Shown in pieces: positions 16,122-41,487 of a stretch of 64,000 bases of DNA. The translations under genes and the position numbers were made by a program. The notes beneath the pieces were generated by a model. It did not search any database, was not told the origin of the DNA, and saw nothing but the letters and a program-made list of their open reading frames with translations. The DNA comes from Candidatus Methylomirabilota bacterium. Its GTDB lineage: Bacteria > Methylomirabilota > Methylomirabilia > Rokubacteriales > CSP1-6. The stretch's first letter is position 1. Each line of letters starts with the position of its first letter. The stretch lies in contig DASYTI010000001.1 in assembly GCA_036002485.1 (NCBI GenBank), forward strand, positions 62,001 to 126,000, read 5' to 3'.

Positions 16122-17018
16122 TCAGATTCCCGCTGCCGGCCCCAGGAAGCCCCGCGCGTCGCGCAGTCGGCGGCGCGCCTGGGCAACCGTCATGCGCCGG
16201 CGGGCCATCACGACGGCGACCTTGACGCTCCCTCCCGCCGGGCCGAGAAGACGCATCGCTCGCGCCGGGCTGACCCCGCCCAGCTCGCTCACCAACGTGA
16301 CGGCCCGGGCCCGCAGCTTCGCCGAGCGCGGCTGGAGATCCACCATGCGGTTGCCGTGGACCTTGCCCAGCCGCGTGAAGGCAGCGGTGGTCAGCGTGTT
16401 GAGGGTGAGCTTGGTCGCGGTGCCGGCCTTGAGACGCGTGGAGCCGGCGAGGACCTCGGGCCCGACGCGGAGCGCGATCACAATGCGCGCGGCGCCGCGC
16501 GGCACCGCGGGATTGCAGGTGACGAGGATGGTGAGGGCGCCGCGGCGGCGCCCTTCGGTGAGTCCGGCCCGGACAAAGGGCGTGACGCCGCTGGCCGCGA
16601 TGCCGACCACGGCATCCTCGCTCCGGGCGAGACGCCGGACGGCGCGAGCGCCCGCCGCCGCGTCGTCCTCGGCGCCCTCCACCGATCTGAACACCGCCGG
16701 CCGGCCGCCGGCCATCAGGGCCTGGACCTGGGCGGGGCGAATATTAAAGGTAGGGGGACACTCGGCAGCCTCCAGGACCCCGAGCCGCCCGCTCGTTCCC
16801 GCCCCGAGGAAGATGAGCCGGCCCCCGGCCTTCAGGCGCTCGACGATGCCGGTCACCGCCTTGCCAATGGCCGGCGTCGCGCGTCCGACCGCACGCACCG
16901 CTCCCGCGTCCGCTCGATTCATCAACCGCGCGATGGCCGCTGCGCTCAGCCTGTCGAGCCGCCCGCTCCGGGGATTCCTGCGCTCCGTGGGCAGCCGGTC
17001 GTAGCGAATCCTCGCCAT
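16122..17018 (-). CDS. murQ: N-acetylmuramic acid 6-phosphate etherase
   Basis: 298 aa from ATG at 17018 (family length ~300). The SIS-domain signature 'LIFLGAGTSGRLGVLEAAEC' followed by PPTF is diagnostic of MurQ, and the catalytic Glu lies in 'AECPPTF'. The C-terminal part has 'RMVDLQPRSAKLRARA' and a UBA-like helical end. MurQ cleaves the lactyl ether of MurNAc-6-P to give GlcNAc-6-P and lactate. It diverges from namZ with only 31 bp between start codons, so the promoters must overlap coding sequence. Together with namZ and nagZ it makes a MurNAc-salvage set; no MurNAc kinase (amgK or anmK) is seen nearby. Confidence 0.93.
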   Translation of the reverse strand: MARIRYDRLPTERRNPRSGRLDRLSAAAIARLMNRADAGAVRAVGRATPAIGKAVTGIVERLKAGGRLIFLGAGTSGRLGVLEAAECPPTFNIRPAQVQALMAGGRPAVFRSVEGAEDDAAAGARAVRRLARSEDAVVGIAASGVTPFVRAGLTEGRRRGALTILVTCNPAVPRGAARIVIALRVGPEVLAGSTRLKAGTATKLTLNTLTTAAFTRLGKVHGNRMVDLQPRSAKLRARAVTLVSELGGVSPARAMRLLGPAGGSVKVAVVMARRRMTVAQARRRLRDARGFLGPAAGI

Positions 17019-17049
17019 GGTCCCGAAGCCTACCCTACTATGGAGGGCG

Positions 17050-18222
17050 ATGACCGCCGTCCTCTCGGGTCTGGACGTCCTGCTCGGGCGCCTCCGGACT
17101 CTCCTCGGTGGACAATCCGTCGGCCTGCTCTGCCACTCCGCCTCCGTGACGGCCGACCTGACCCCCGCCGCCGAGGCGCTCATGCGCGTCAAGGGGGTGA
17201 AGCTCCGTCGCCTCTTCGCGCCCGAGCACGGCATCACGGGCGCCGCGCAAGACCTCGTGCTCGTCGGCCACGAGCGAGATCCGCTGACCGGGCTGCCCGT
17301 CATGAGCCTCTACGGCAAGCGCCTCGATCCCGAGCCGCGCGCGCTCGACGGGCTCGACGCGCTGGTCATCGATCTCCAGGACGTGGGCGCGCGCTACTAC
17401 ACCTACAACTGGACCATGGCCCTCGCCATGCAGGCCGCCGCCCGCGTGAATCTCCCCGTCATCGTGCTGGATCGTCCGAATCCCCTCGGCGGCGAGCGGC
17501 TCGAGGGCAATTGGCCCGTGGCGGGCTGGCGCTCCTTCGTCGGGCTCTACCCTCTTCCCATCCGACACGGCATGACTATGGGCGAGCTGGCCGGATATCT
17601 GAACGATACGCACGCCCTCGGCTGCGATCTGACCGTGGTGCCCATGCTGGGCTGGAAGCGGGGCATGGTGTGGGAGGACACCGGGCTGCCGTGGGTGGCG
17701 CCCTCGCCGAATATGCCGACGCCGGACACGGCCCGCGTCTATCCCGGCGGCTGCCTCATCGAGGGCACGAATCTCTCGGAGGGCCGCGGCACCACGCGGC
17801 CCTTCGAGTGGATCGGCGCGCCCTATCTGGATGGCCCACGACTCGCGCGGGCCCTCGAGCGTCGCGGGTTGCCCGGCGTGCGCTTCCGCCCCGTGGGCTT
17901 CGAGCCGGCCTTTCACAAGTGGAAGGGGCAGCGCTGCGGCGGGCTCCAGGTCCACGTCACCGACGCCGCTCGCTTCAAGCCTTTTGCGACCTATGTCGCC
18001 CTCATCGCCGAGGCGCGCGGTCAGGCCCCGCGCCATTTCCGCTGGCGCAAGCCGCCCTATGAATTCGAGCGCGTGAGGCTGCCCATGGATCTGCTCTGCG
18101 GCGGCCCCGGAATACGGCGCGCTCTCGAGCGCGGGGTGCCCCTCGCGCGTCTCGAGGCCTCCTGGCAGCCGGATCTTGTCCGGTTCGCCCGCGAGCGCCG
18201 GCCGTACCTGCTCTACTCATGA
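17050..18222 (+). CDS. namZ: NamZ-type exo-beta-N-acetylmuramidase (DUF1343)
   Basis: 390 aa from ATG at 17050 with GGAGG just upstream; an in-frame ATG at 17017 overlaps the murQ start and is less likely. DUF1343 motifs in order: 'LFAPEHGITG', 'VIDLQDVGARYYTYNWTM', 'VLDRPNPLGG', 'NLSEGRGTTRPFEWIGAP' and 'KWKGQRCGGLQVHV'. NamZ (GH171) removes terminal MurNAc from peptidoglycan fragments. No clear signal peptide is visible, so it may act on imported fragments, unlike many secreted homologues. The TGA overlaps the nagZ ATG (ATGA). Confidence 0.9.
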   Translation: MTAVLSGLDVLLGRLRTLLGGQSVGLLCHSASVTADLTPAAEALMRVKGVKLRRLFAPEHGITGAAQDLVLVGHERDPLTGLPVMSLYGKRLDPEPRALDGLDALVIDLQDVGARYYTYNWTMALAMQAAARVNLPVIVLDRPNPLGGERLEGNWPVAGWRSFVGLYPLPIRHGMTMGELAGYLNDTHALGCDLTVVPMLGWKRGMVWEDTGLPWVAPSPNMPTPDTARVYPGGCLIEGTNLSEGRGTTRPFEWIGAPYLDGPRLARALERRGLPGVRFRPVGFEPAFHKWKGQRCGGLQVHVTDAARFKPFATYVALIAEARGQAPRHFRWRKPPYEFERVRLPMDLLCGGPGIRRALERGVPLARLEASWQPDLVRFARERRPYLLYS

Positions 18223-19763
18223 GCCTCGAGAAGCTGGTGGGGCGGAAGCTCATGTTCGGCCTGCCGGGGCCTGACCTCACAGACGAGGACATCCGACTTT
18301 TTCGCCTGACGGAGGCCGGGGGACTCATCCTCTATCGCCGCAACTTCGAGACGCCGGAGCGCCTCGCCCGTCTGCTCGACCGCCTCGAGGAGGCGCTGGG
18401 CCGGCGCCTCCTCGTGGCCACGGATCACGAGGGCGGGCGCATCATCATGCTGGGGCGCGGCGTGACCATCTTCCCCGACGCGCTCGCGGTGGGGACGGCC
18501 GGAGAGCTTGGCTTCGCCCATCGTCAGGGTCTCCTCGAGGGACGCGAGCTGCGACGGCTTGGCGTGGATCTCAACTTCGCCCCCGTGCTCGACGTGCTCA
18601 CCGAGCGCTACAGTCCGAACATCGGCATTCGCTCGTACGGCAAGGATCCCGAGCTGGTCTCGCGCTTCGGGGCCGCGCGCATCCGCGGGATGCAGGCGGC
18701 GGGCGTCTCGGCCTGCGCCAAGCACTTCCCGGGCAAGGGCCATGCCCCGATTGACGCCCATCTGGGCTTGCCGGTGATCGACTCGGACTGGAGCGAGATG
18801 CACGCGACACACCTGCCGCCTTTCCTCGCCGCCATGGAAGCCGACGTCGACGCGATCATGACCTCGCATCCGCTCTACCCGCGCCTGGATCCCGCCCCCC
18901 GCATGCCCGCGACGTTTTCGCGGCTCATCGTCGAGGAATACCTGCGCGGCGAGGTCGGCTACCGAGGGGTCATCGTGTCGGACGACCTCGAGATGGGCGC
19001 CATTGGCGAGCTCTGCCCCGTGGGCGAGGCCGCCGTCCGGGCCGCGGCGGCCGGACACGATCTCCTTCTGATCTGCCACACGCCCGCGCTCCAGTATGAA
19101 GCGCACCGCGCGCTGCTCGAGGCCGGTCGGGCATCGCGGCTGCCCCTGCGCGGCCTCGAGCAGAGCGCCGCGCGCATCGAGGCTCTCGCCGCCAAGCGGG
19201 CCGCTCGCTACCACGGCGGCTCCCCACGCCCCGAGCGCGACGGGGAGCCCCTGGCCAAGGCCCAGGCCACGCGCGCCGCGACCTGCGTGGCGCCCATCAC
19301 GTCCGCCTTTCGTCGGGCCCTCAACGGCCGCGTGCTCGTGATCTTCCCTCGCCTCTCCGAGCTGGCGCCCCGGATCACCGTCGAGGACGTCATGCGAGAG
19401 GAGGCGCGCTTCGTGCGCGAGGCCCTTGCGCCTCACGGGGTCGAGCCGGAGGTGGAGGTCGTGGCCGTCGAGCCCGGCGAGCCCGAGATCGCGCGCGCGG
19501 CCGCGGCGGCCAGAGCCGCCGACGCCGTCATCGTCTTCCTCTACGATGCGCATCTTTATCCGTCGAATCGCGCGCTCCTCGACGCTCTCCAGGACGATGC
19601 GCCGGCCCTGGGGGTGGTGCTGATGCGCGATCCCTGGGACGCGGAGTGGCTCCGCCCCGGGGTGGCGGCGGTGACGGCCTACGGCTGGCGCCGCTGCCAG
19701 CTCGACGCGGCGCTCGCTCGCCTGCTCGCTCCCTCGCTGGAGAAGGCCCGAGGGTCGACCTGA
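18219..19763 (+). CDS. nagZ: Beta-N-acetylglucosaminidase NagZ (GH3) with C-terminal domain
   Basis: 514 aa. The first ~330 residues are a GH3 barrel with 'LVATDHEGGRI', 'KHFPGKGHAPIDAHLGLPVI' (the His of the DxH loop acts as general acid/base in NagZ) and 'VIVSDDLEMGAI' (nucleophile Asp). About 170 further residues form a second alpha/beta domain, so this is the two-domain form. It removes GlcNAc from muropeptides, supplying the MurNAc-terminated substrates of NamZ. Overlap with namZ by 4 nt implies coupled synthesis. Confidence 0.92.
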   Translation: MSLEKLVGRKLMFGLPGPDLTDEDIRLFRLTEAGGLILYRRNFETPERLARLLDRLEEALGRRLLVATDHEGGRIIMLGRGVTIFPDALAVGTAGELGFAHRQGLLEGRELRRLGVDLNFAPVLDVLTERYSPNIGIRSYGKDPELVSRFGAARIRGMQAAGVSACAKHFPGKGHAPIDAHLGLPVIDSDWSEMHATHLPPFLAAMEADVDAIMTSHPLYPRLDPAPRMPATFSRLIVEEYLRGEVGYRGVIVSDDLEMGAIGELCPVGEAAVRAAAAGHDLLLICHTPALQYEAHRALLEAGRASRLPLRGLEQSAARIEALAAKRAARYHGGSPRPERDGEPLAKAQATRAATCVAPITSAFRRALNGRVLVIFPRLSELAPRITVEDVMREEARFVREALAPHGVEPEVEVVAVEPGEPEIARAAAAARAADAVIVFLYDAHLYPSNRALLDALQDDAPALGVVLMRDPWDAEWLRPGVAAVTAYGWRRCQLDAALARLLAPSLEKARGST

Positions 19764-19767
19764 GCAT

Positions 19768-19797
19768 TTGACATCGCAGAAGGGCCGTGCGCATGTT
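19768..19797 (+). promoter_or_regulatory. Candidate promoter upstream of the DHA2 transporter
   Basis: TTGACA at 19768-19773, 18-bp spacer, CATGTT at 19792-19797 (3 of 6 matches). The annotated GTG of the transporter is only 6 nt downstream, so if this promoter is used the message would be leaderless or a later start would be used. Tentative. Confidence 0.35.
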
Positions 19798-19802
19798 AGC
19801 GC

Positions 19803-21437
19803 GTGGCCCAGCCCCCACCATCCCCCGCGACCGACGTGCCCGTCGGCTCCGTGCGGAAATGGGCCATCACCTTCTCCGTGATGCTGGTCACCGTGATGCA
19901 GGTGCTCGACACCAGCATCACCAATGTCGCCCTCCCCCACATGCAGGGATCGTTCTCGGCCAGCATCGACGAGATGTCCTGGGTGATCACCTCGTATCTG
20001 GCCGCCAACGCCGTGGTCATCCCGGCCAGCGGCTGGCTCACCGCGGTGTTCGGGCGGCGGCGCTTCTACCTGATCTGCACCTTCACCTTCACGGCCAGCT
20101 CGTTCCTCTCCGGACTGGCGCCGAACCTCGAGTTCCTCGTGGCCATGCGCATTCTCCAGGGTCTGGGCGGAGGCTCCGTGGTCCCCATGACGCAGGCGAT
20201 CATGTGGGAGATCTTCCCGCTCGAGCAGCGCGGGACGGCCATGACGGTGTGGGGCATCGGCATCATGATGGCCCCCATCCTCGGGCCCACGGTGGGCGGC
20301 TATATCGCCGACAACTGGTCCTGGCGCTGGATCTTCTACATCAATCTCCCCATCGGCATCCTCGCCTTCTTCATGGTGAGCGCCTTTCTCTTCGATGCGC
20401 CCTTTCACCGCCGGCCCCGCCACGTCGACGTCTGGGGTATTGCCCTCATGGTGCTCGGCTTCGGCTGCCTTCAGCTTTTTCTCGACCTGGGCGAGCGCAA
20501 CGACTGGTTCGACTCGTCGCTCATCGTCGGCCTGGGCTTGCTCGCCGTGTTCACGCTGTGCGCCTTCGTGATCCGCGAGATCCGCGCGGCCGAGCCCATC
20601 CTCGATCTCGATGTGTTCAGGGACCGCAACTTCGCGGTCAGCACCCTCGCCATCTTCATGGTCGCCCTCGGCTTCAACTCGAGCCTTCTCCTCGTCGCCC
20701 TCTACACCCAGCAGATCTTGGGCTACGACGCGTGGTCTTCGGGGCTCACCCTGGCCCCCGGGGGGCTCGGCACCATGATCTCGCTCATGATCTCCGGCCG
20801 GCTCGTCGCGCGGGTAGACCAGCGCCTCATGCTCGCCGGAGGCTGTCTGCTTGGGGCATATGCTCTCTGGCTCATGGGGCAGGTCACGCCCACCATGGAC
20901 TTCTGGAGCCTGGCCTGGCCGCGCTTCCTCCAGGGCTTCTCGCAGGGATTCATCTTCCTCCCCCTCCAGGCCCTTTCTCTCGGCACCATCGTGACGGAGC
21001 GCCTGGGCAACGCGACCGCTGCGTACAACGTGCTCCGCAACATGGGCGGAAGCGTGGGGGTGGCCGTGGCCACCACGCTCCTTGCCCGGCGCAGCCAGCA
21101 GCATCAGTTCACCCTGGCCAGCCACATCGACATCTGGAATTCCGTGGTCGACGATCGGCTCCGGGCGTGGGCGGCCCACTTCATGGCCCATGGCGCCGAC
21201 ACCTTCACCGCCGAGCGGCAAGCGCTGTCGATGCTCTACCGCGAGACCAGGACCCAGGCGCAGATCCTGTCGTTCGCGGACGACTTCTGGCTCATGGTGG
21301 TGGCGTACATCGCCGTCGTGCTCCTGATCCCGCTCATACGCCGGGTCAAGGTCCGCCGGGGACCGCCGGCCCGCCGGCCAGAGGCGGCCGACGAACCGGG
21401 CGCCCGCGATCCCGGTCTTCCCGCTCCCGCTGAGTGA
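19803..21437 (+). CDS. DHA2-family MFS exporter (EmrB/QacA type)
   Basis: 544 aa with about 14 hydrophobic helices. The opening 'MLVTVMQVLDTSITNVALPHM' is the DHA2 motif D1 region (DxTIVNVALP). Motif A-like 'SGWLTAVFGRRRFYLI' follows, then motif C in 'GIGIMMAPILGPTVGGYIAD'. A basic, Pro/Arg-rich tail ends the protein. The GTG start at 19803 gives a short hydrophilic N-terminus. No HlyD-type partner (EmrA) is adjacent. It is followed 3 bp later by an alpha/beta hydrolase on the same strand, suggesting cotranscription. Drug or metabolite efflux is expected. Confidence 0.92.
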   Translation: MAQPPPSPATDVPVGSVRKWAITFSVMLVTVMQVLDTSITNVALPHMQGSFSASIDEMSWVITSYLAANAVVIPASGWLTAVFGRRRFYLICTFTFTASSFLSGLAPNLEFLVAMRILQGLGGGSVVPMTQAIMWEIFPLEQRGTAMTVWGIGIMMAPILGPTVGGYIADNWSWRWIFYINLPIGILAFFMVSAFLFDAPFHRRPRHVDVWGIALMVLGFGCLQLFLDLGERNDWFDSSLIVGLGLLAVFTLCAFVIREIRAAEPILDLDVFRDRNFAVSTLAIFMVALGFNSSLLLVALYTQQILGYDAWSSGLTLAPGGLGTMISLMISGRLVARVDQRLMLAGGCLLGAYALWLMGQVTPTMDFWSLAWPRFLQGFSQGFIFLPLQALSLGTIVTERLGNATAAYNVLRNMGGSVGVAVATTLLARRSQQHQFTLASHIDIWNSVVDDRLRAWAAHFMAHGADTFTAERQALSMLYRETRTQAQILSFADDFWLMVVAYIAVVLLIPLIRRVKVRRGPPARRPEAADEPGARDPGLPAPAE

Positions 21438-21440
21438 GAC

Positions 21441-22253
21441 ATGGGATCCGTCGTCATCGCCGAGCGCACCATCCAGTATCAGGCCATCACCAGCGGGGCG
21501 GCGCGCCCCGGACAGCGCGTGCTCTACGTGCACGGGACCGGGTGCAACTCGGACGTGTGGGTCCCCCACATGACCGCCATCGCGGCCGCTCACGTACCGG
21601 TGGCCATCGACCTGCCCGGCCATGGAGGGTCGCCGGGCCGCGGCTTTCGCGGGATTGCCGACTACGCCTACTTCGTGATCGAGCTCGCGAAGAGGCTGGG
21701 ATGGGATCGCTTCGTGGTGGTCGGCCATTCCATGGGAGGCGCCGTGGCCCTCATGATCGCCCTCCATCACCCCGAGCTGCTCGAGGGCCTCGGGCTGGTC
21801 GACACGGGCGCGCGGCTGCGCGTGCACCCCGCTCTCCTTCGCGGGGCCCGCGACGCGGCCACGTCCGGGCGCCCATCCGCGACAGATCGCTCGTGGGCCT
21901 ACGCGGCCGCCACGCCTCCGCCCGTCGTCGACGCCGTCCAGAAGCTGACGGCGAACGGCGACCCATGGGTCACCTACGGAGACTGGATCGCGGACGACAC
22001 CTTCGACGTCATGAGCCGCGTGAAGGATATCCGCGTTCCCACCGTGGTCGTGTGCGGGGCCGAGGACCGGCTCACCCCCGTGCGGAATCACCAGTTCCTC
22101 GCCGCGCAGATCGCCGGCGCTCGGCTGACCATCATCGAGGGGGCCGGCCACTGGGTGTTCTGGGAGCAGCCAGAGGCTTTCACGCGGACCGTCCGCGACT
22201 TCCTCGACGGCCTGCCCTCCTCCCCCGCTCAGATCACGCGCTCGAGTCCCTAG
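21441..22253 (+). CDS. Alpha/beta hydrolase
   Basis: 270 aa. Oxyanion segment 'LYVHGTGCNSDVW', nucleophile elbow G-H-S-M-G-G, acid Asp in 'CGAEDRLTPV' and His in 'EGAGHWVFWEQPEAF' complete the triad. Cap domain about residues 130-190. Starts 3 bp after the exporter. The stop TAG is followed at once by repeat copy 2. Substrate unknown (esterase, lactonase or C-C hydrolase are all possible). Confidence 0.9.
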   Translation: MGSVVIAERTIQYQAITSGAARPGQRVLYVHGTGCNSDVWVPHMTAIAAAHVPVAIDLPGHGGSPGRGFRGIADYAYFVIELAKRLGWDRFVVVGHSMGGAVALMIALHHPELLEGLGLVDTGARLRVHPALLRGARDAATSGRPSATDRSWAYAAATPPPVVDAVQKLTANGDPWVTYGDWIADDTFDVMSRVKDIRVPTVVVCGAEDRLTPVRNHQFLAAQIAGARLTIIEGAGHWVFWEQPEAFTRTVRDFLDGLPSSPAQITRSSP

Positions 22254-22475: not shown

Positions 22476-24068
22476 TCAATCCTGTCGCCGCCGAGACCGT
22501 CGCAGTCGCCCCAGCTCCTGACTGGCGAGCTGGAAGAGGTTCGTCGACGTCCAGTAGAGGACCATGCCCGCGGGGAACGTGTAGAAGAGCAGGAAGAACA
22601 GCAGGGTCATGCCCATCAGGTTCCTGCGTTGCCGCCGAACGAGCGGGGGCGTGAGGACGCGCGAGGGGAACCGCAGCAGCGCGGCCAGCGAGACTCCGCT
22701 CATCACGACCGGGAGCAGGTTCAGGTGGCACCCGAAGAAGGGCAGGCACATGGGTAGCCGGAGCAGCTCGTCCGGCCGCGACAGATCCGGGATCCACAGG
22801 AATGACACCCGGTAGAGATCGAAGTCCTCCGCCAGCATGTCGAAGACGGCGATGAACACGGGAAGCTGGATCAGGAAGCCGAGCAGGCTCTTCAAGGTGT
22901 ACAGGGGGTGGACGCCTTCCTCACGGTACAAGGCGAGGGTGCGCCGTGCGCGCTCCTCGCCGCGATGGGCTGCCTTGATGGCGTCGATCCCGGGCTGGAG
23001 CCGCGCCTGGGTGGCGTTGACCTTTTCTTGCAATCGCTCGGCCACGGCCGTCAGGGGCAGGAGGAGGACCTTTACCGACACCGCGAGAGCGACGATGGCC
23101 ACGCCGGGATGACCCACGAGCGCGGTCAGCCCGCGGAGGAGGAACAGAAGGGCGAAGCTGAGCGCGCGCAGCCAGGACCAGAGCCCGGAGAAGAGCATCT
23201 CTTCGAGGGCCGGGTCCGCCTGGGTCAAGGCGCGGTTCTCGAGCGGCCCCGAGTAGAACGTGTAGCGCCATGAGCGCTGTTCTGGATCGTGGGCGGAGAC
23301 GAGGGCGACCCTCGTCCCGGGCCGCGACTCGAGGACGCCGGCGCCATCCGAACGCAGGACAATGGCCCAGAATCGGCTGCGAAAACCCACCCAGTCGCCC
23401 GCGCGGAGAGGCGTGGGGTCTCGGCGATCGTCGTCGACGACGCGGACGATACCTCCGGCGACCACCACTCGGCTGACACGATCAAGCACCGCGGCGAAGC
23501 CGGCGGCCGGTGCCGCGAACAGGCGACGGCCCGCCCCCAGTTCGAGCTCGAGGCGCCGGTCCGTCATGAAAGCGGCCGCGTTCGGTCCGAGCGGTCGCAC
23601 GGTCATCACGACCTCGTAGCCCTCCCGCGAGATCTCGAATGACTTCACGAGACGGACGCCGTCGATGGGCAGGTCGGACTGGAAGGTCACGATCCGGGCG
23701 CGAGCGTCCTCCGTGAGGGCGGCGGTGAAGCGCAGGCGCTGGAGGTCCACGGATGGATCAGGACCGGGGCCGCGAAGGATGAGCCGCGCCTGCGACGGCT
23801 CATCGTCGCTCGTGAATTGGACCGACGTCCCCGACGCCCCGTCGGCCATGGCACAAGACGGATGGCAGGCCCGCCACCGCGTGGGGCGCGCGCCGTCGAG
23901 GGAGAACAGGAGGTCGAGGCGGTTGGTCGTGATGTGGACGCTTTCGCCGCCCGCCTCCCCTGCCGAGACGGGGAGGGCGATCGCGCCCAGAACGACGAGC
24001 AGTCCCGGAAGCAGTCGCGTCGCGCGGCCGCGGGCCAGCCGCCGCCACCGCCCGCCCTGCCTCTCCAT
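22476..24068 (-). CDS. YidC/Oxa1-family insertase paralogue with periplasmic domain
   Basis: 530 aa from ATG at 24068, which overlaps the TAA of the upstream gene (TAATG). Residues ~12-40 form a membrane anchor, ~45-280 a periplasmic beta domain ('RLVKSFEISREGYEVVMTV'), and ~290-520 the Oxa1 core. In the first core helix, 'VSVKVLLLPLTAVAERLQ' places a Lys where E. coli YidC has the groove Arg five residues before PLT; 'LIQLPVFIAVFDML' and 'MTLLFFLLFYTFPAGMVLYW' are conserved. Housekeeping yidC normally sits with rnpA/rpmH; here it is linked to envelope genes, suggesting a dedicated role in assembling those membrane proteins. That role is inference. Confidence 0.85.
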   Translation of the reverse strand: MERQGGRWRRLARGRATRLLPGLLVVLGAIALPVSAGEAGGESVHITTNRLDLLFSLDGARPTRWRACHPSCAMADGASGTSVQFTSDDEPSQARLILRGPGPDPSVDLQRLRFTAALTEDARARIVTFQSDLPIDGVRLVKSFEISREGYEVVMTVRPLGPNAAAFMTDRRLELELGAGRRLFAAPAAGFAAVLDRVSRVVVAGGIVRVVDDDRRDPTPLRAGDWVGFRSRFWAIVLRSDGAGVLESRPGTRVALVSAHDPEQRSWRYTFYSGPLENRALTQADPALEEMLFSGLWSWLRALSFALLFLLRGLTALVGHPGVAIVALAVSVKVLLLPLTAVAERLQEKVNATQARLQPGIDAIKAAHRGEERARRTLALYREEGVHPLYTLKSLLGFLIQLPVFIAVFDMLAEDFDLYRVSFLWIPDLSRPDELLRLPMCLPFFGCHLNLLPVVMSGVSLAALLRFPSRVLTPPLVRRQRRNLMGMTLLFFLLFYTFPAGMVLYWTSTNLFQLASQELGRLRRSRRRQD

Positions 24069-25867
24069 TACCGGTAGAACCGGCTCATCTCCTGCAGCGC
24101 GGCCCGCAGCCTGTCGCGCGGGAGCGTGGGCTTCTGGACGAGGCGATAGTTCTGGTCGCGGATCTCGATGCCGGCCCGGTAGACGATGATCACCCGGTCG
24201 GGCTCGATCAAGGCGAAGTCGGTGAGACCGAGGGCGATGAGCCACTCCCACTGCCGGTCGGAGAAGAGGCTGTGCCCGCTCGCGTAGTCGGAGGGCGGAT
24301 TCGTGCAGCCGAACAGCTCGGTGAGCAGCGTGGGCGCCACGTCGTTGTGGGAGGTCCGGCGAACGACGCGGCCCGGTGGCCGTCCGGGCCAGCGCACGAG
24401 CAGGGGCGTATGCATCTGGTAGTCGCTGAAGGAGGTGGCGTGCCCCATGAAGCCCTGCCCGTTCTCGTTGAACTCCATCCCGTGATCGGAGGTGACGATG
24501 ACCACGGTGCGCTCGAGGAGCTTCCGGCGCTCCAGATCGTCGAGCACCCGCCCGACCAAGGAGTCCACGTAGTGCACGGCCGTCAGGTACCGGGCGTATT
24601 GGCGTACCTGGGTCGATGCTCCCGGCGGGACGGAAACAGCCACCGGGGGGTAATTGTCAGGCGGGTCCATGGCCACCGCGGCGTTGTAGTACAGGAACCC
24701 GAAGAACGGACGCGCCGTGTCCCGCCGGTTGAGCCAGTCCAGCCACTCCTCGGTCAAGGTCCGGTCCCGCCCGCTCGACCCAGGATAGAGCGAGATCGTC
24801 TCGCGGCGTAGGTTTGGGACGCGGGCCAGGGCCGTCCGATCGAGCCCGACGACCCAGGCGTACACGGGCGAGCTGACGAACAACCCCAGCTGGTAGCCGT
24901 ACTGTCGGAACAGGTCCATGAGCACCGGAGGCTGAGCGATGTCGGCGAAGGCGTCCCAGTAAGTCGCGGGGAGCCCGTAGAACAGGGAGAACATTCCCGC
25001 CCGCGACGAGTTCCCGCCGCTGTAGTGCCCCTCGAACCGGATCGTGTCGCGCGCGAACTCGGCGAGCCTCGGCGCGGCCTCGGGCCTCAGGGCGTCGGCG
25101 CGCATGGCGTCGACCACGACGAGCAGGACGTTCAGCGGGGCCGGGCGCGGATCGCACCGCAGCGGGGCCCTTGGGTAGTTCAGCTCGCCGCTCGGGGGCC
25201 GGGCGAGGGCGGCCGCGAGGCTCTGCTCACGCGCCCGGGCCTGATCCACGATGCCGAGCCTCCACAGCCGCCGATAATCCCGGAGCGGGTAGTAGAGCGG
25301 CAGGTACCGGGTGAACGAGGTGACGGGCACGTAGTAGCGCGCGTCGGCCACCACGTGGATGAGCTGGCTGGCCAGGAGGCAGCTCCCGAGGCCCAGGGCG
25401 AGATACCGCCCGATCCGACGCGTGGCGGGAAGGGCGGTGCGCTTCCAGACCCAGACGGCCAGCATCGCCTCGATGGCCATGCCCAGGAGAAAGTACAGAG
25501 CGAGGAACGCCCAGGTCTGCGGCTCCAGCAGAGTGAAGGTCAGCACGCTGAGGTGGTATCGGTTCTCGGCGAAAACCAGGGTGTCGAGGAGCAGGAAGCT
25601 GAGAACGACACTGCCCAGAAAGACGCCGAGGGGCAGAACCAGTCGCGGCCGCGGGATCAGCGCGATGACGGGAACGAGCAGGAGGAAGGGGAGGTAGGCG
25701 AGCGCGGACAGGTGGCCCACGTAGGCGAGGAGGGCGTAGACCCAGGCGACCGAGGGCCCGACGGCGACGTAGTACCAGAGGTAGCGCAGGCCGACGACAC
25801 CCAGGAGCGCCGCGTTGACGACGGCGAACCAGCTCCCCCAGCGGAGCAGCCGTCGTCGCGCGCTCAC
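24068..25867 (-). CDS. YejM/LapC-like membrane protein, DUF3413 plus sulfatase-fold domain
   Basis: 599 aa from GTG at 25867 (GTGA overlap with the upstream gene). Five or so helices in residues 10-175, an amphipathic linker, then an alkaline-phosphatase-fold domain from ~245: 'NVLLVVVDAMRADAL' (metal Asp253), 'HYSGGNSSRAGMFSLFYGLP' (nucleophile region, Ser287/Ser288), and 'VIVTSDHGMEFNENGQG' (metal ligands Asp461, His462). The architecture matches YejM/LapC, which in E. coli is a catalytically inert regulator of LpxC. Here the metal ligands look intact, so it may be an active phosphoglycerol- or phosphoethanolamine-type transferase. Position between a YidC paralogue and a TagF-like enzyme supports an envelope polymer role. 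Confidence 0.85.
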   Translation of the reverse strand: MSARRRLLRWGSWFAVVNAALLGVVGLRYLWYYVAVGPSVAWVYALLAYVGHLSALAYLPFLLLVPVIALIPRPRLVLPLGVFLGSVVLSFLLLDTLVFAENRYHLSVLTFTLLEPQTWAFLALYFLLGMAIEAMLAVWVWKRTALPATRRIGRYLALGLGSCLLASQLIHVVADARYYVPVTSFTRYLPLYYPLRDYRRLWRLGIVDQARAREQSLAAALARPPSGELNYPRAPLRCDPRPAPLNVLLVVVDAMRADALRPEAAPRLAEFARDTIRFEGHYSGGNSSRAGMFSLFYGLPATYWDAFADIAQPPVLMDLFRQYGYQLGLFVSSPVYAWVVGLDRTALARVPNLRRETISLYPGSSGRDRTLTEEWLDWLNRRDTARPFFGFLYYNAAVAMDPPDNYPPVAVSVPPGASTQVRQYARYLTAVHYVDSLVGRVLDDLERRKLLERTVVIVTSDHGMEFNENGQGFMGHATSFSDYQMHTPLLVRWPGRPPGRVVRRTSHNDVAPTLLTELFGCTNPPSDYASGHSLFSDRQWEWLIALGLTDFALIEPDRVIIVYRAGIEIRDQNYRLVQKPTLPRDRLRAALQEMSRFYR

Positions 25868-27057
25868 CGCTCCTCGCCTCGCCGGCGCCCCGCCCTCAGG
25901 GGAGTGCCGGGCGCCCCCGCCTCCCTTCGCTCGTCCGCGATGCGCGCGATCTCCCGCGCCCCCACCTCGACGCTGCGTCCGAAGTTGAACGTCCATTGTT
26001 CCCGCAAGGCGGCGCTGCGTTGACGGAACTCCGCCGCGCCGCGAAGCAAGGCCGCCACGTGCTGGGGCGCGTCCGTCACACGGTCGAGGGGCAGGATGGT
26101 CCCGAGCTCCCGCCGGATGCGCATCTCCATCGGCTCCAGACCGAGCTCTGCGTATTTCGGGTTCCGCACGCGGGGGGGAACATCGACGAAGAGCACGGGC
26201 TTGCCGAGGCCCAGGGCGTATTCGATGGCCATGGCCGACCAATCGCAGATCAGAAGGTCGGACTCGAGCAGCGAGGCGCTCTCGTCCATCCTGTCCACGT
26301 ACTGGAATCGGGGGTGCTTCCCGAACCGGGTGATCATGTCCTGGACGAGGCGCGGCGAGAGCCGGGTCGTCTGGTAGTGCGGCCGCAGGATCACGCGCAG
26401 GCCGGCCCCCAGCAAGGCGGCGATCAACGGCTCCCCGCAAACGTGCAGAATCGAGTGCTCGCCCCAGGTGGGGGCGAGCAGCGCGGTGATGCTTTCCGAC
26501 GGCTCCCGCCGGTGGGCGGCGGCGAATTCGACGAGACGCTCGAGCCGGGGATAACCGTAGGCGAACAGGTGCTTGGGGGCCAGGCCGTTCCGCTCCTCAC
26601 GCCGGCGGATCTCCGCCACGTGATGGGGCCCGGTGCAGAAGAGGCTATCGTAGTGATCGTACGAATTTTCGTGGTCCACCATGTGCGTGCTCCCCATGCT
26701 GTGGAACACGTAGATGTAGCGGACGGGGTGGATGGAGCGCTTGAGCTGGAAGTTTCCCAGATCCAGCATGGTCAGCACCATGACGTCGGCCTTGAGCATC
26801 TGGAAGAACCAGGTACACATGGCTCCCGAGCGGATGCGGAAGGCGTGGAGACCGGTGCGGGGATTGGACGGAAGGTCGGCGACTTGCTCGGAGGTGACGT
26901 GGCAGACCGTCCGGGACAGCTTCTCGATCAGGAAGTCGATGAGCGGCTGGAGGTGATGCCAGTCCTGGTGGGTCTCGGAGTAGAAGACGATGTTGCGGTC
27001 GCGCGGCGGAAGCTTCTGAAAGCGGCGATAGCTGGTCCAGTCCCGCCACATCTTCAT
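25864..27057 (-). CDS. CDP-glycerol glycerophosphotransferase (TagF-like) family protein
   Basis: 397 aa GT-B-like protein, without the N-terminal extension of teichoic-acid TagF. Likely catalytic or phosphate-binding residues: His119 in 'YVFHSMGSTHM', His227 in 'ILRPHYQT', and Asp272/Ser274 in 'LICDWSAMAIEYALGLGKPVLF', equivalent to the TagF nucleotide-binding 'TDYSSxxFD' motif. Family members transfer polyol phosphates from CDP-linked donors to glycans. In a diderm this would decorate LPS, capsule or a periplasmic glycan. The stop overlaps the start of the sulfatase-fold gene. Acceptor and donor are unknown. Confidence 0.82.
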   Translation of the reverse strand: MKMWRDWTSYRRFQKLPPRDRNIVFYSETHQDWHHLQPLIDFLIEKLSRTVCHVTSEQVADLPSNPRTGLHAFRIRSGAMCTWFFQMLKADVMVLTMLDLGNFQLKRSIHPVRYIYVFHSMGSTHMVDHENSYDHYDSLFCTGPHHVAEIRRREERNGLAPKHLFAYGYPRLERLVEFAAAHRREPSESITALLAPTWGEHSILHVCGEPLIAALLGAGLRVILRPHYQTTRLSPRLVQDMITRFGKHPRFQYVDRMDESASLLESDLLICDWSAMAIEYALGLGKPVLFVDVPPRVRNPKYAELGLEPMEMRIRRELGTILPLDRVTDAPQHVAALLRGAAEFRQRSAALREQWTFNFGRSVEVGAREIARIADERREAGAPGTPLRAGRRRGEER

Positions 27058-27102
27058 GGGGCGCGGCGACGCCGGAGCCGTCGGGCAGCGCCGAGCGACG
27101 CG

Positions 27103-27348
27103 CTACTCGTCCGCGGCGGGTGTGCCGTCCACCGCTCCTGGGCGAGGCCCGCGCTTCTTGCCGCGAACCCAGCCGACCAGCCGGTACCAGAACATCTTGA
27201 CGGCCAGGGCCACCGCCGCCGTCACGCCGATCACCGCGGAGACGAGCATGCTTCCCGTCCCCGGATCGAGATAGGCGTAGGCGGGGGACGCGATGGACAG
27301 GCCGGCCACGAGAACGAGCGCGACCCGAAGAGCTCGACGGATCATCAT
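27103..27348 (-). CDS. Small membrane protein with N-terminal signal and DPGTGS motif
   Basis: 81 aa from ATG at 27348 (or the adjacent ATG at 27345); the frame is open further upstream without recognisable sequence. It has a signal-like helix ending 'ASPAYA', then 'YLDPGTGSML', one more transmembrane helix ('AVIGVTAAVALAVKMFWYRL') and a basic tail. Small proteins of this pattern occur in many bacteria beside sulfatase or phosphatase-fold genes; their role is not established. It lies between the TagF-like and PhyH genes on the same strand, so it is probably part of the same unit. Confidence 0.75.
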   Translation of the reverse strand: MMIRRALRVALVLVAGLSIASPAYAYLDPGTGSMLVSAVIGVTAAVALAVKMFWYRLVGWVRGKKRGPRPGAVDGTPAADE

Positions 27349-27444
27349 CCTCTGGGTTCCACGACTGTCTTGAGTAGCAGAATCGGCCGTGGGAATCAAG
27401 ACCCGCGTGCCCGGGAGCGGCCGGCGCTCCCTCCCCACGTCGAT

Positions 27445-28245
27445 TCAGACTCGAAAGGTGTAGGTCCGGGTCGGATCTCGCTCGATGTCAGGCGGAAAAC
27501 TCTTCCGCTTGTCGGCATAGTAGCGTATGCGGTGATCCCCGGCCGACTGGCGGTTGTAGGTGATGTAGAGCACACGCCGGCGCTCCGCGGTGAGATTCGG
27601 GCCGGAGGCGTGCGGCGTGTAGGAATCGAAGAACACGGCATCGCCGGCCTGGGTGGGCACGGGACGGGCACCCAGGCGGCGCATGTCGTCGTCGGTGAGG
27701 GGCGTCCACTCGTCCCCCAGAAGGCCCCGCGTGTGGTGTCCGGCCGCGAGCTCCAGGCAGCCGTTCTGGGCGGTGGTGGCGTCGAGGCTGACCATGGCCG
27801 TGATGAACAGGTCGGCGTAGGCGCTCCAGCCGGCCTGCTGGTCTTGATGGGGCTTGAATCCGTCGCCGCCGGGCAGCTTGAGATTGATCTTGTCCTTGAA
27901 GAGCACGGCGGGCTCGCCGAAGAGCCGGGACACGGAGCCGCGCAGCTTGTCGCCGTCGCACAACGCGGCAAAGCCGTCATGGAACGGGCAGAAGTTCTCG
28001 ATCCGCTGGAGCACGCGCTCGCCGGGGCGCAGCAAGCTCGGCTCGAAGTACATCATGCATCGACCGGGCACCTCGGGTAGCCCCTGCAGCTCGTCGGTCC
28101 ACGCCGAGATCCTTCGCATCTCTTCCTCGCCGAACAGGCCCGGCACCACCACGAAGCCGTCACGCCGGAAAGCCTCGCGGGGCGCCGCCCCCTTGGGATC
28201 AGGCGCCCGTCCCGTCTCGGACCACGGGGTCGTCGTCTTGCTCAT
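27445..28245 (-). CDS. Phytanoyl-CoA dioxygenase (PhyH) family oxygenase
   Basis: 266 aa. Fe(II) ligands His133 and Asp135 in 'DGFKPHQDQQAGW' and His212 in 'SYTPHASGPN'; Arg224 in 'RRRVLYITYN' is placed to bind 2-oxoglutarate. The 'KINLKLPGGDGF' run before the HxD is the style of the PhyH subgroup that includes phosphonate hydroxylases such as PhnY, though substrate cannot be decided from this. It diverges from a nucleotidyltransferase across 272 bp. In context it might hydroxylate a head group used in the envelope pathway; this is inference. Confidence 0.85.
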   Translation of the reverse strand: MSKTTTPWSETGRAPDPKGAAPREAFRRDGFVVVPGLFGEEEMRRISAWTDELQGLPEVPGRCMMYFEPSLLRPGERVLQRIENFCPFHDGFAALCDGDKLRGSVSRLFGEPAVLFKDKINLKLPGGDGFKPHQDQQAGWSAYADLFITAMVSLDATTAQNGCLELAAGHHTRGLLGDEWTPLTDDDMRRLGARPVPTQAGDAVFFDSYTPHASGPNLTAERRRVLYITYNRQSAGDHRIRYYADKRKSFPPDIERDPTRTYTFRV

Positions 28246-28417
28246 TCGCGCACGAACCTCCGTCCGGGCGGCCGGCCATGTTGGATGGACCCTCTGACAT
28301 GCGCGCCGATCGTGCCAGAGTCCGGGGAAGAGGTCAAAGGGAACCTCGACGCGGAGGGTGAGCCCCGTCCCCGTGCTTCCTCTTCTACTCCAGGCAGAGT
28401 CGAGAGAAGGCCAAAAA

Positions 28418-28423
28418 TATTAT
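28418..28423 (+). promoter_or_regulatory. Candidate -10 element in the PhyH/nucleotidyltransferase divergent gap
   Basis: TATTAT (5 of 6 consensus) inside a short AT-rich patch (28413-28424) that stands out in an otherwise GC-rich 272-bp gap between divergent genes. No good -35 is seen 17 bp upstream. It could serve an activator-dependent promoter of the nucleotidyltransferase. Confidence 0.3.
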
Positions 28424-28482
28424 GGACACTCCGCTCCCCCGATGCGACCCTTAGGCCGATTCGCCACCACGCGCCGAGAGCC

Positions 28483-28521
28483 ATGAACGAACGAATCAGG
28501 AACGCCGAGACGACCAGGTGA
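28483..28521 (+). CDS. Possible 12-codon leader peptide before the nucleotidyltransferase
   Basis: ATG at 28483 opens MNERIRNAETTR, whose TGA overlaps the GTG start of the nucleotidyltransferase by the 4-nt GTGA arrangement typical of coupled genes. GAGAG lies just upstream. The same frame is open back to 28285 (78 codons), so a longer product is possible. No homologous family is recognised; the overlap is the only evidence. Confidence 0.3.
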   Translation: MNERIRNAETTR

Positions 28522-29252
28522 CGGCCGTCATCCTGGCCGCCGGCGTGGCCCGCCGGCTCGCCCCCCTGACCGATCACACGCAGAAATCACTCCTTCCCGT
28601 GGGAGGCCGGGCCATGCTCGCGTGGATGCTGGAGGCGCTCCACGCGGTCGGCGTGCCGCGTGTGGTGATCGTGGTCGGGCACTGCGCGGATCAAGTGGAG
28701 GCCCTGACCGCGTCGGCACCGCGCGGCCTGAGCATCCAGTGCGTTCACAACCCCGCCTACCAGAAGGGCTCGGCCCTGTCCCTCTACTGCGCCCGCGACG
28801 TGATGGTGCGGGAGCCCACCCTCATCATGGACGCGGACGTGGTGTTCCCCCGGGAGTTTCTGCGCCGGCTCGTGGGATCGGCGGCCGCGAACGCGCTCCT
28901 CATCGACCTGGGTTTTGCCGACACGGGCGAGGAGGTGAAGATCTATACGCAGGGGGACCAGGTCATCGCCCTCGGCAAGAAGGTGATTCCCAAGGCGTGG
29001 GACCGCGTGGGAGAGGGCATTGGCTTCTTCAAGTGCGGAGCGGAGGCAGGTCCAGAACTCGTGCGCCTGCTCGAGCACGTGATCGACGAGAGCCAGGGGC
29101 TCTGCGAGTACGAGGACGCCCTGCATCTCTTGGTGAGCCGGCACCCCGTGCAGGCCGTGGACGTGACGGGATTGCCGTGGACGGAGGTGGACTTCGTCGA
29201 GGACCTGCGCCGGGCCCAGACGGAGGTCTTCCCGGAGATTGCCCGGCTCTGA
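28518..29252 (+). CDS. Sugar/choline-phosphate-type nucleotidyltransferase (LicC/PntC-like)
   Basis: 244 aa from GTG at 28518. N-terminal 'VILAAGVARRLAPLTDHTQK' is the nucleotidyltransferase loop (GxGxR-type, with Lys23), and 'LIMDADVVFP' supplies the metal-binding Asp105/Asp107. Length and the pattern 'EVKIYTQGDQVIALGKKV' with 'GEGIGFFKCG' resemble CTP:phosphocholine or 2-aminoethylphosphonate cytidylyltransferases more than hexose-1-P enzymes. It would make a CDP-activated head group, which fits the TagF-like transferase across the divergent gap. Exact substrate unproven. Confidence 0.82.
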   Translation: MTAVILAAGVARRLAPLTDHTQKSLLPVGGRAMLAWMLEALHAVGVPRVVIVVGHCADQVEALTASAPRGLSIQCVHNPAYQKGSALSLYCARDVMVREPTLIMDADVVFPREFLRRLVGSAAANALLIDLGFADTGEEVKIYTQGDQVIALGKKVIPKAWDRVGEGIGFFKCGAEAGPELVRLLEHVIDESQGLCEYEDALHLLVSRHPVQAVDVTGLPWTEVDFVEDLRRAQTEVFPEIARL

Positions 29253-32315: not shown

Positions 32316-32915
32316 CTAGGAGCCGGACTTCTGGCGGAGTGCCTTGAGGAGGTCGGCGAACGAGCCGCGCTGGATGATGCGGGCGAACTGAGTCTTGTAG
32401 TTGGCCACCAGGCTCACCCCATCGACGTGCACGTCGTTGACGGCCCAGCGATCGCCCGCCTTGGCCAGGCGGTACTCGACCTGGATCTGCGAGCCCTTGG
32501 GGGTGACGACCCGGGACTGCACGACGGCGGCATTGCCTTCCACGCGCTCGCCGACAAAGCTGATGGGCTCGCCTGCATATTGCTCGATCTTGCCCATGTA
32601 GGAAGTGGCGACCAGATTGCTGAAGAGTCGGATGAACTCGTCCTTCTCCGTCGGGGACACCTGGGTCCAGTATCCGCCCAGCGAGATGCGCGACATCTCC
32701 TGGAAGTCGAAGAGCGATTCCGTCACCTGGCGGATCTGCGCGCGGCGCTGGTCCGTGGACACCTTCGGCGCCGCAGTATTGCCCTGCTCGGGGAAGACCT
32801 GCTTCACGGCGACCTGCACCGTCTCCGTCGGACTCGCCGCAGCCGCCACTCCGGCCGACGTGAGCAGCATCACCATCATCACACTCAGCCTGATTGGTCT
32901 GGTCACTCTGATCAC
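32316..32915 (-). CDS. mlaC: MlaC/Ttg2D-family phospholipid-binding protein
   Basis: 199 aa from GTG at 32915 with GGAGAG at suitable spacing; the frame is open further upstream but lacks family sequence. A signal peptide ('LSVMMVMLLTSAGVAAA') is followed by the MlaC fold: 'FDFQEMSRISLGGYWTQVS', 'FIRLFSNLVATSYMGKIEQY', 'VEYRLAKAGDRWAVNDVHVD' and 'GVSLVANYKTQFARII'. Periplasmic shuttle of phospholipids between inner and outer membranes, which supports a diderm host. No mlaDEF genes adjoin it, so it is orphaned here. Confidence 0.9.
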   Translation of the reverse strand: MIRVTRPIRLSVMMVMLLTSAGVAAAASPTETVQVAVKQVFPEQGNTAAPKVSTDQRRAQIRQVTESLFDFQEMSRISLGGYWTQVSPTEKDEFIRLFSNLVATSYMGKIEQYAGEPISFVGERVEGNAAVVQSRVVTPKGSQIQVEYRLAKAGDRWAVNDVHVDGVSLVANYKTQFARIIQRGSFADLLKALRQKSGS

Positions 32916-33038
32916 CCTGTTCTCTCTCCGCGACTCGCCGTTGGGGGGAAGCTGCTGACTCCGTGAGTGTCCCACAGGTGCCCAGACGATGCCAGCACGC
33001 AACAAATTCATATCGCCGGCGCAGGCGCACGGCGCAAA

Positions 33039-33854
33039 ATGACCGCCATGGCGCGGACATGGACGGTGGGCGTCGACGCGGGCGGCACCTGGGTGCGCGC
33101 GCTCGCCACCGATGATCACGGCCGGCGGCGGCGGGCCCGAGTGCGCGCCTCGGCCTCGGACGAGATCGGAATCACGCTCGCGAGCATTTGGCGGCGATGG
33201 CAACTGCGCGGCCGCGACGTCGCGCGCCTCGTCGTCGCCTCCCGCGGGGTGTGGACGCCGGCCGAGCGTCGCGTGGCCGCGCGCCGCCTGCAGGACCTCG
33301 CCCGCCGGATCACGGTCATCTCAGACGCCGAGGCTGCATATCTCGGCGCCCTCGGCCCCACCCCCGGCGTGCTCGTTCTGTCGGGGACAGGCTCCATCGT
33401 TCTCGGCCGCGATGCCCGGGGACGATGGAGGCGAGGCGGCGGGCTCGGACCGCTCTTTCACGACGCGGGATCGGCCTTCTCGCTCGGGCTCACGTGGCTG
33501 GGGCACGGAGACGAAGCGCGGGCGCGGCGCTTCGCCAAGGCTCCGGACGCCGTGGCGCGCATCGCGGCGCTCGGGCCGCGCGTGCTGCATCTGGCCCGTG
33601 GGGGCAATGCCACGGCGCGGCTCATCGCCAGCGCGGAAGCGGCGGCCCTCGCCTGGACCCTCGCCCGTGTCGCCGGCCCTCTCCGTCTCGAGGGCCGCGT
33701 GCCCGTGAGCTGGGCGGGGAGTCTGATGAGCAATGACTACTTCCGCGGCCAGGTATGGCGGTGGGCACGACGTCAGGGACTGAATATCGTCTCGCGCACG
33801 CCGCGAGAGAGCCCTCTCCAGGCCGCCGCGCGTCTAGCCGCCCGCCCTCGCTGA
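33039..33854 (+). CDS. BadF/BadG-type ATPase, N-acetylglucosamine kinase-like
   Basis: 271 aa; start at ATG 33039 or 33048. ASKHA-fold motifs: phosphate-1 'VGVDAGGTWVRA', connect-1 'VISDAEAAYLGAL', phosphate-2 'VLVLSGTGSIVLG', then 'GGGLGPLFHDAGSAFSLGL'. The family includes GlcNAc and glucosamine kinases and subunits of benzoyl-CoA reductase; lack of the Cys residues of the reductase activator favours a sugar kinase. The 3' end overlaps the convergent APC permease by 21 bp. It could supply the missing kinase for amino-sugar salvage, but it is 14 kb from murQ/nagZ. Confidence 0.82.
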   Translation: MTAMARTWTVGVDAGGTWVRALATDDHGRRRRARVRASASDEIGITLASIWRRWQLRGRDVARLVVASRGVWTPAERRVAARRLQDLARRITVISDAEAAYLGALGPTPGVLVLSGTGSIVLGRDARGRWRRGGGLGPLFHDAGSAFSLGLTWLGHGDEARARRFAKAPDAVARIAALGPRVLHLARGGNATARLIASAEAAALAWTLARVAGPLRLEGRVPVSWAGSLMSNDYFRGQVWRWARRQGLNIVSRTPRESPLQAAARLAARPR

Positions 33855-37531: not shown

Positions 37532-37686
37532 GAAACTCGGAAAAGGCTGCTCTTTTCGGCCTTTACACAGATGCATGTCCCCCGGCATAATCCTTGCCCC
37601 GGGGCTCAAACTCTCGTAACCTGGTCGGACGGAGCATCCATTGTATTAGGATGCCAGCGAGCATTGAGCCGAGTGGAACAGCAGGC

Positions 37687-40600: not shown

Positions 40601-41028
40601 AGATCAGCGGGCGGCACCAGGGCCCCATCCACCTCATGGTCACGGACGTCGTCATGCCGCAGATGAGCGGTCGCGAGCTCGCCCAGCGGCTCGCCCCCCT
40701 GCGTCCCGACATGAGGGTGCTCTACATGTCGGGCTATACGGATGACGCCATCGTCCGCCATGGTGTCCTCGGGGCCGGCATGGCCTTCCTCTCCAAGCCC
40801 TTCACGCCGGACGCGCTGGCCGCCAAGGTGCGCGAGGTCCTCGAGACGCAGCCCTCGCCGGCCGCTCAGGGAGCCCCGTCGCCCGCGTTTGGTGGCGCGC
40901 CCCCGAATGGAAATGGCGCAGGGGCTCCCCCCGCGTCCGTCTCCGCCCAGACGCCCACGGGGACGCCCACCGGTACCATAGTCCAGCGCGCCGAAGACGT
41001 AGGCCAGAACCGGCCCACGCGCGTCTAG
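37687..41028 (+). CDS. Hybrid sensor histidine kinase with sensory, PAS and receiver domains
   Basis: 1113 aa from ATG at 37687 (ATG at 37651 also possible). Transmembrane helix ~34-52, extracytoplasmic dCache-like region ~55-315 ('[20 protein letters not shown]'), second helix ~322-343, PAS-like domain ~365-470, second PAS ~490-610 ending '[17 protein letters not shown]', HisKA with phospho-acceptor His640 in '[14 protein letters not shown]', HATPase_c ~735-855 ('[13 protein letters not shown]'), an Ala/Pro-rich linker ~860-935, and a receiver with Asp987 in '[12 protein letters not shown]'. The [12 protein letters not shown]-box is the HWE/NtrB-like 'hybrid PAS kinase' type. No cognate regulator adjoins it. 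Confidence 0.9.
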
Positions 41029-41050
41029 CCACGCTCCGACCCTCCGTCTC

Positions 41051-41467: not shown

Positions 41468-41487
41468 GCCCACCGTCAATCCGGATC

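Follow-up and report, generated by a model that had tools for sequence, protein, structure and literature searches.

Tailoring with head groups carried by cytidine monophosphate (CMP), known from the Lic pathway (LicC/LicD, phosphocholine) and the Pnt pathway (Rice et al. 2019, PMC6697681), shapes the encounters of bacterial surfaces with hosts, phages, and antibiotics. The described tailoring pathways centre on cytoplasmic steps. Here, we analyzed a six-gene unit that would add to such steps a membrane-bound enzyme of the alkaline phosphatase fold, a small membrane protein with a DPGTGS motif, and a YidC paralogue. The unit occupies positions 22476–29252 of a 64,000-nucleotide (nt) stretch (hereafter the window) of contig DASYTI010000001.1 (assembly GCA_036002485.1, Candidatus Methylomirabilota bacterium), a 4.45 Mb draft genome with 96% completeness. 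Close relatives of the locus come from metagenome-assembled genomes of Candidatus Rokuibacteriota. The combination of these six genes is undescribed. We consider the chances about even that the unit serves to attach a small head group to the envelope of a diderm with lipid A, in a Lic- or Pnt-like manner. Five genes form one tight operon on the minus strand, and the sixth, ntp, is divergent on the plus strand:

22476–24068, minus strand: yidC2, a YidC/Oxa1 paralogue of 530 amino acids (aa), whose start lies on the final base of the sulfatase-fold gene
24068–25867, minus strand: YejM/LapC-like sulfatase-fold gene with a GTG start and a 4-nt overlap with tagF
25864–27057, minus strand: tagF-like gene (tagF) for a putative CDP/CMP-head-group phosphotransferase (CDP, cytidine diphosphate)
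27103–27348, minus strand: dpg, the gene for the small DPGTGS membrane protein (81 aa), with an ATG start and a 45-nt gap to tagF
27445–28245, minus strand: phyH, a PhyH (2-oxoglutarate/Fe) oxygenase gene with a 96-nt gap to dpg
28417–28425, minus strand: TATAGTATC-like element conserved at seven loci, likely a -10 box
28518–29252, plus strand: ntp, a predicted PntC/LicC-type cytidylyltransferase of 244 aa, across a 272-nt divergent spacer

The gene families named in the initial annotation were confirmed by Pfam and NCBIfam matches, except that the DPGTGS protein matches no model. Pfam scores were 102 bits for 60KD_IMP in YidC2, 171 bits for DUF3413 and 132 bits for Sulfatase in the sulfatase-fold protein, 30.6 bits (cut-off 22.1) for Glyphos_transf in the TagF-like protein, 92.5 bits for PhyH, and 64.8 bits for NTP_transf_3 in the ntp product. 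The overlapping or close spacing also held, with 1–4 nt for yidC2, the sulfatase-fold gene, and tagF, and 45 and 96 nt for dpg and phyH. Alignment of the divergent intergenic region from seven loci revealed the TATAGTATC-like element as a common feature. No Pho box stood out in this alignment.

The distribution of the unit was determined in 99 related genomes, G000 being the window's own genome. The tagF gene was found in seven of them and dpg in exactly the same seven and no others, while the sulfatase-fold gene was present in eight, namely the same seven and, as a fragment at a contig edge, G054. All six genes are clustered in G002, G056, and G032, and contigs break off inside the unit in G004, G055, and G045. 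In G055, a separate contig carries yidC2 together with the terminal part of the sulfatase-fold gene. The gene order is altered in G045, where ntp comes after the sulfatase-fold gene and yidC2 directly follows tagF, so the set survives rearrangement. Everywhere ntp keeps the company of phyH, dpg, and tagF, and the flanks vary between genomes. Thus, the genes are not scattered among relatives (scattering would have spoken against the proposed locus) but recur as a set in other genomes of the family at differing sites, more than chance would explain. They represent a real, transferable unit carried by a minority of uncultured soil Rokubacteria.

Among members of the same genus, G004 shares with the window the flank carrying the CDF and SSS transporter genes; G001, G002, and G003 have this flank without the unit, which in G002 is located at another site. 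Synteny on the CDF side stops at about 29570 in G001, G002, and G003, the other flank is not conserved, and no clean empty site was found in these three genomes. Relative to G000, identity is higher in G002 (same genus) than in G056 (another genus) for the inositol-phosphate-synthase-like protein (91% and 82%) and the AepY-like protein (69% and 56%). Over the same pairs, it stays level for YidC2 (79% and 80%), the sulfatase-fold protein (75% and 74%), PhyH (89% and 87%), and the ntp product (83% and 87%); the TagF-like protein goes from 85% to 80%. Divergence of the unit is therefore out of step with that of host genes, which suggests, without proving, its acquisition by horizontal transfer. 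Base composition does not indicate foreign origin (68.1% GC in the unit versus 68.9% in the window). Further DPGTGS-like matches, found in four places with E values of 0.002–0.008, were at chance level; inspection of the one in G098 revealed neither a DPGTGS protein nor a related neighbourhood.

The ntp product is classified as a PntC/LicC-type cytidylyltransferase. In a profile search of PDB, PntC (6pd1) was the best match over the full length (E 1.9e-30), followed by inositol-1-phosphate cytidylyltransferase (E 1.9e-19), LicC (E 2.2e-18, first half only), and mannose-1-phosphate and MurU-like enzymes (E 1e-12 to 1e-13, N-terminal parts only). The profile contains four PepM- or aminotransferase-associated relatives and leans somewhat to that family; a single-sequence search gave the same ranking with PntC first. 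The top NCBIfam model was the inositol-1-phosphate enzyme (88 bits; cut-off 580), no PntC model being among the matches, and this enzyme likewise ranked top for the three PepM-associated relatives scanned. Lys23, Asp105, Asp107, Glu199 (in EYEDAL), and WxEVD align with PntC residues, and the PntC motifs EYExAL and WxE(V/I)D are both present. The enzyme is thus PntC/LicC-like and not a hexose-1-phosphate enzyme of another pathway, the latter assignment having been named as fatal to the initial proposal. The presence of NamZ and apparent NagZ genes at 17017–19763 of the window, together with weak MurU matches, could suggest that ntp encodes a MurU-like sugar-1-phosphate enzyme of nearby peptidoglycan salvage genes and is a chance neighbour of the operon. 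We find this scarcely credible, since in every relative ntp remains linked to phyH, dpg, and tagF although the flanks change, and MurU aligns with only the first 64–130 residues, whereas PntC matches the full length. RmlA and GalU, like MurU, were N-terminal matches or ranked far below PntC.

Relatives of the enzyme point to phosphonate clusters. The best ones in the plasmid collection, with 34%–39% identity, neighbour PepM (Roseomonas marmotae and Mycetohabitans) or a class V aminotransferase (Sulfitobacter). Of 60 plasmid relatives sampled, at least 27 have PepM, the phosphoenolpyruvate (PEP) mutase, within 12 kb, a lower bound, since the count rests on 60 of 121 PepM records.

The oxygenase is, judged by family models, nearest to phosphonate hydroxylases. 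By far the best NCBIfam model was the methylphosphonate hydroxylase PhnY (NF052437), at 177 bits still under its cut-off of 500, with ectoine hydroxylase at 36 bits. The metal triad H133, D135, and H212, as well as R223, are invariant in 10 sequences. The closest plasmid relative, 45% identical, is encoded on Rhizobium rhizogenes pC5.7d between a cytidylyltransferase and LicD, in a cluster that also holds AepY and PepM. A more distant relative from Rhodococcus adjoins an HD-domain gene, an arrangement that we liken to PhnY* beside PhnZ. Neither the window nor any relative has a PhnZ-like HD-domain gene in the unit, an absence that argues against PhyH being catabolic.

Since a sequence search of PDB with the TagF-like protein gave no match, its fold was predicted (pLDDT 72), and the best PDB fold match was TagF (3l7m, E 1e-9). 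H119, H227, D272, and S274 are invariant in seven orthologues and, assigned by motif, represent candidate catalytic residues. By analogy, the TagF-like enzyme plausibly fills the role held by LicD in the R. rhizogenes triad. The initial annotation had also considered a teichoic-acid-like decoration, for which no specific evidence of a polyol substrate emerged. Polymerisation of glycerol- or ribitol-phosphate from a CDP-polyol by the TagF-like enzyme is improbable: the Pfam and fold matches to TagF would fit it, but ntp is not of the type of TagD, the usual CDP-glycerol enzyme, no polyol gene is present within the unit, and the PhyH step has no place in such a pathway. The TagF-like protein is described here as a transferase and not as an established polymerase.

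The sulfatase-fold protein comprises hydrophobic N-terminal segments (DUF3413) and a periplasmic domain of the alkaline phosphatase fold. It aligns with YejM over 569 residues, along its full length (E 1.5e-63), and is not a YejM equivalog; the score of the NCBIfam model NF038282 (YejM/LapC) was 280 bits, under the cut-off of 825. In its metal site, D253 is kept in YejM too and S288 is opposite T302 of YejM, while D461 and H462 (DH) and H476 are replaced or lost in Escherichia coli YejM. All five residues are invariant in five orthologues. The metal site, described as apparently intact in the initial annotation, proved to be so, and together with a nucleophilic serine it apparently works. For E. 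coli YejM, Mg-dependent phosphatase activity has been reported, the substrate being not known (PMC13333357). LpxC was found in the host and in every relative tested, with or without the unit, which identifies the host as a lipid-A-containing diderm. Full-length similarity to YejM and the presence of LpxC could also indicate a lipopolysaccharide regulation operon, with a LapC/YejM regulator and the remaining genes incidental. Such a role is very improbable, given that the sulfatase-fold gene is present in only 8 of 99 relatives while LpxC is in every one tested, that the metal site lost in YejM is kept, and that the gene is co-inherited with genes of CTP (cytidine triphosphate) activation and transfer.

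The DPGTGS protein has a signal-like segment, the invariant YLDPGTGS sequence, one membrane segment, and a basic tail. A literature search on DPGTGS gave nothing relevant. On plasmid pT136b of Rhizobium sp. T136, a DPGTGS gene is flanked by nodL on one side and on the other by a methyltransferase gene, after which comes a sulfatase-fold gene; this is the arrangement of the nodL-noeA-noeB operon. Since an alkaline phosphatase fold is predicted for NoeB (PMC9758233), the pairing of DPGTGS and alkaline-phosphatase-fold genes recurs in an unrelated setting. A DPGTGS reading frame, often unannotated, is also located upstream of noeA-noeB-like genes on symbiosis plasmids of Rhizobium and Sinorhizobium (L027 7953–8168).

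YidC2, the genome's second YidC, carries a signal-like segment at its N-terminus and a sizeable extracytoplasmic domain, and no Pfam match was obtained for the N-terminal domain. Lys333, invariant in four orthologues, occupies the groove position that in canonical YidC presumably carries Arg.

What has been observed is that the six genes form a set and are inherited together, that they belong to the families given, and that their catalytic residues are intact. From them, we infer the order of the steps, the carried group X, its acceptor, the roles of the DPGTGS protein and YidC2, and periplasmic remodelling. First, the PntC/LicC-type enzyme would use CTP to activate X-P, which is an alkyl-phosphate or an alkyl-phosphonate, yielding CMP-X. 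The PhnY*-like oxygenase would hydroxylate X before or after activation, and the TagF-like enzyme would then move X-P from CMP-X to a membrane-bound acceptor at the cytoplasmic face. These three steps are the better supported part of the scheme. In the periplasm, the YejM-like enzyme, partnered in the membrane by the DPGTGS protein, could hand the group to the final acceptor or trim it, in an EptA- or LtaS-like way. The YidC paralogue may aid insertion of the unit's membrane proteins. The chain of activation, hydroxylation, and transfer, already put forward in the initial annotation, is strengthened by the independent R. rhizogenes triad in a PepM cluster; the periplasmic remodelling and dedicated insertase of that proposal stay conjectural.

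Several findings weigh against such head-group tailoring. Family matches of the unit proteins are all distant and mostly under equivalog cut-offs. The TagF fold match has a modest TM-score of 0.41 and leads those to other GT-B enzymes by no more than one to two orders of magnitude. The predicted structure of YidC2 (pLDDT 39) was too poor and was discarded. In G004 (C302 2691–4364; a bin with 8% contamination), the sulfatase-fold gene occurs in a second copy that is shortened internally and does not have the other five genes nearby, and the G054 copy stands alone at the contig edge with no tagF beside it. Judging by these stray copies, the sulfatase-fold gene is not strictly bound to the other five. 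Finally, no kinase, transporter, or PepM supplying X-P was found within the unit, and no match to the PepM model TIGR02320 over its cut-off was found in G002, G004, G045, G055, and G056.

The PepM matches in G000 did not exceed 145 bits (cut-off 320) and were of the EDQ..PK(K/R)CGH type, without the EDKx5NS motif. This motif is also missing in G004, and the EDK matches in G002, G045, G055, and G056 read EDKx5NC. In G032 (C82 1873–4526), AepY adjoins a PepM-nucleotidyltransferase fusion whose PepM part matches model positions 1–155 only; its central stretch is apparently gone, which seems to be decay or an assembly error. The search itself works, as three comparator plasmids scored 365–406 bits, and incomplete bins might hide PepM in one genome but hardly in all. 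With no intact PepM found in unit-bearing genomes, de novo synthesis of the phosphonate by the host is unsupported as a general supply. An AepY-like gene (286–306 bits, cut-off 312.5) was present in almost every genome tested, whether or not it carried the unit. In Rokubacteria it belongs to a hopanoid-type cluster (G000, C205 23–4322, and counterparts) with inositol-phosphate-synthase-like, UPF0104-like, Mla-type transport, squalene-hopene-cyclase-like, radical SAM, and RND/MMPL-like genes. This cluster lacks PepM, which is present in a similar arrangement in Roseomonas.

X may be either a scavenged phosphonate or a phosphate ester, both being sub-cases of the favoured head-group tailoring and not alternatives to it. 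It is possible, though on the whole doubtful, that a phosphonate such as 2-aminoethylphosphonate (AEP), hydroxy-AEP, or methylated AEP is scavenged from soil and used in a PepM-less Pnt pathway. The ntp product and the oxygenase independently point to phosphonate clusters, with PepM near many plasmid relatives of the former, but AEP scavenging for decoration is unusual and no phosphonate importer is encoded within the unit. A phosphate ester (phosphocholine or phosphoethanolamine), with the oxygenase acting on the acceptor or another carbon in a Lic-like pathway, is likewise a tentative candidate whose supply requires no PepM. In Tde-PntC, Glu104 and Glu196 sit at the amine of AEP, while LicC has Asp at both places (PMC6697681). 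The ntp product has Asp at the first position (Asp105, matching LicC D105 and not Tde-PntC Glu104) and Glu at the second. At the first position, Asp is shared by the PepM-associated relatives, and therefore Asp105 does not separate AEP from phosphocholine. Moreover, PhnY*-like oxidation of the carbon adjoining a phosphate ester would break the ester, and a scan of the unit proteins, with no genome-wide search made, detected no LicA or LicB. A more far-reaching version of the favoured explanation is rather unlikely: a PepM-independent, horizontally moving phosphonyl tailoring in an uncultured diderm phylum, taking up environmental aminophosphonates, converting them into hydroxylated CMP-phosphonates, and placing them on lipid A or an envelope glycan via the TagF-like enzyme and an active YejM relative, with its own insertase.

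The unit represents a natural case of a YejM relative with an intact active site and thus bears on the role of YejM-type active sites. It also makes the role of DPGTGS proteins testable.

Other genes of the window include those for NamZ, an apparent NagZ-type glycoside hydrolase, an EmrB-type MFS transporter, and an alpha/beta hydrolase at 17017–22253, possibly involved in peptidoglycan salvage and not seen beside the unit in other genomes. An MlaC-like gene at 32316–33203 lies beside the SSS and CDF transporter genes. In a split mutase operon at 37594–44631, genes for a B12-binding protein, an AMP-binding ligase, and the large subunit of a methylmalonyl-CoA mutase come after one for a hybrid histidine kinase, and a protein with four rhodanese domains is encoded at 52186–53808.

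Comparison with known systems places the unit close to the Pnt pathway (PMC6697681), with which it shares a PntC-type enzyme, its best structural relative, and the logic of a CMP-bound head group; relatives of both its ntp and phyH genes sit in such clusters. It differs by lacking a PEP mutase and adding TagF-like, YejM-like, DPGTGS, and YidC genes, and since PepM was tested and not found, the unit falls outside the Pnt pathway as strictly defined. The Lic pathway likewise combines CTP activation with a dedicated phosphotransferase, but the unit has a TagF-like protein in place of LicD, no LicA/LicB, and additional oxygenase and periplasmic genes. The R. rhizogenes pC5.7d triad similarly has a cytidylyltransferase, PhyH, and a head-group transferase adjoining one another; unlike the unit, it is accompanied by PepM and AepY, uses LicD instead of a TagF-like transferase, and has no membrane partners. 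TagF, the CDP-glycerol poly(glycerophosphate) transferase, shares its Pfam family with the unit's protein and is the best PDB fold match, although this match is partial and weak, no CDP-glycerol supply is encoded within the unit, and single transfers are more likely than polymerisation. The Sinorhizobium NodL-NoeA-NoeB operon resembles the unit in having a DPGTGS gene beside an alkaline-phosphatase-fold gene, without CTP activation or a TagF-like gene. YejM/LapC/PbgA has the same DUF3413 domain and alkaline phosphatase fold, whereas the unit's protein retains the metal ligands and sits in a putative tailoring operon.

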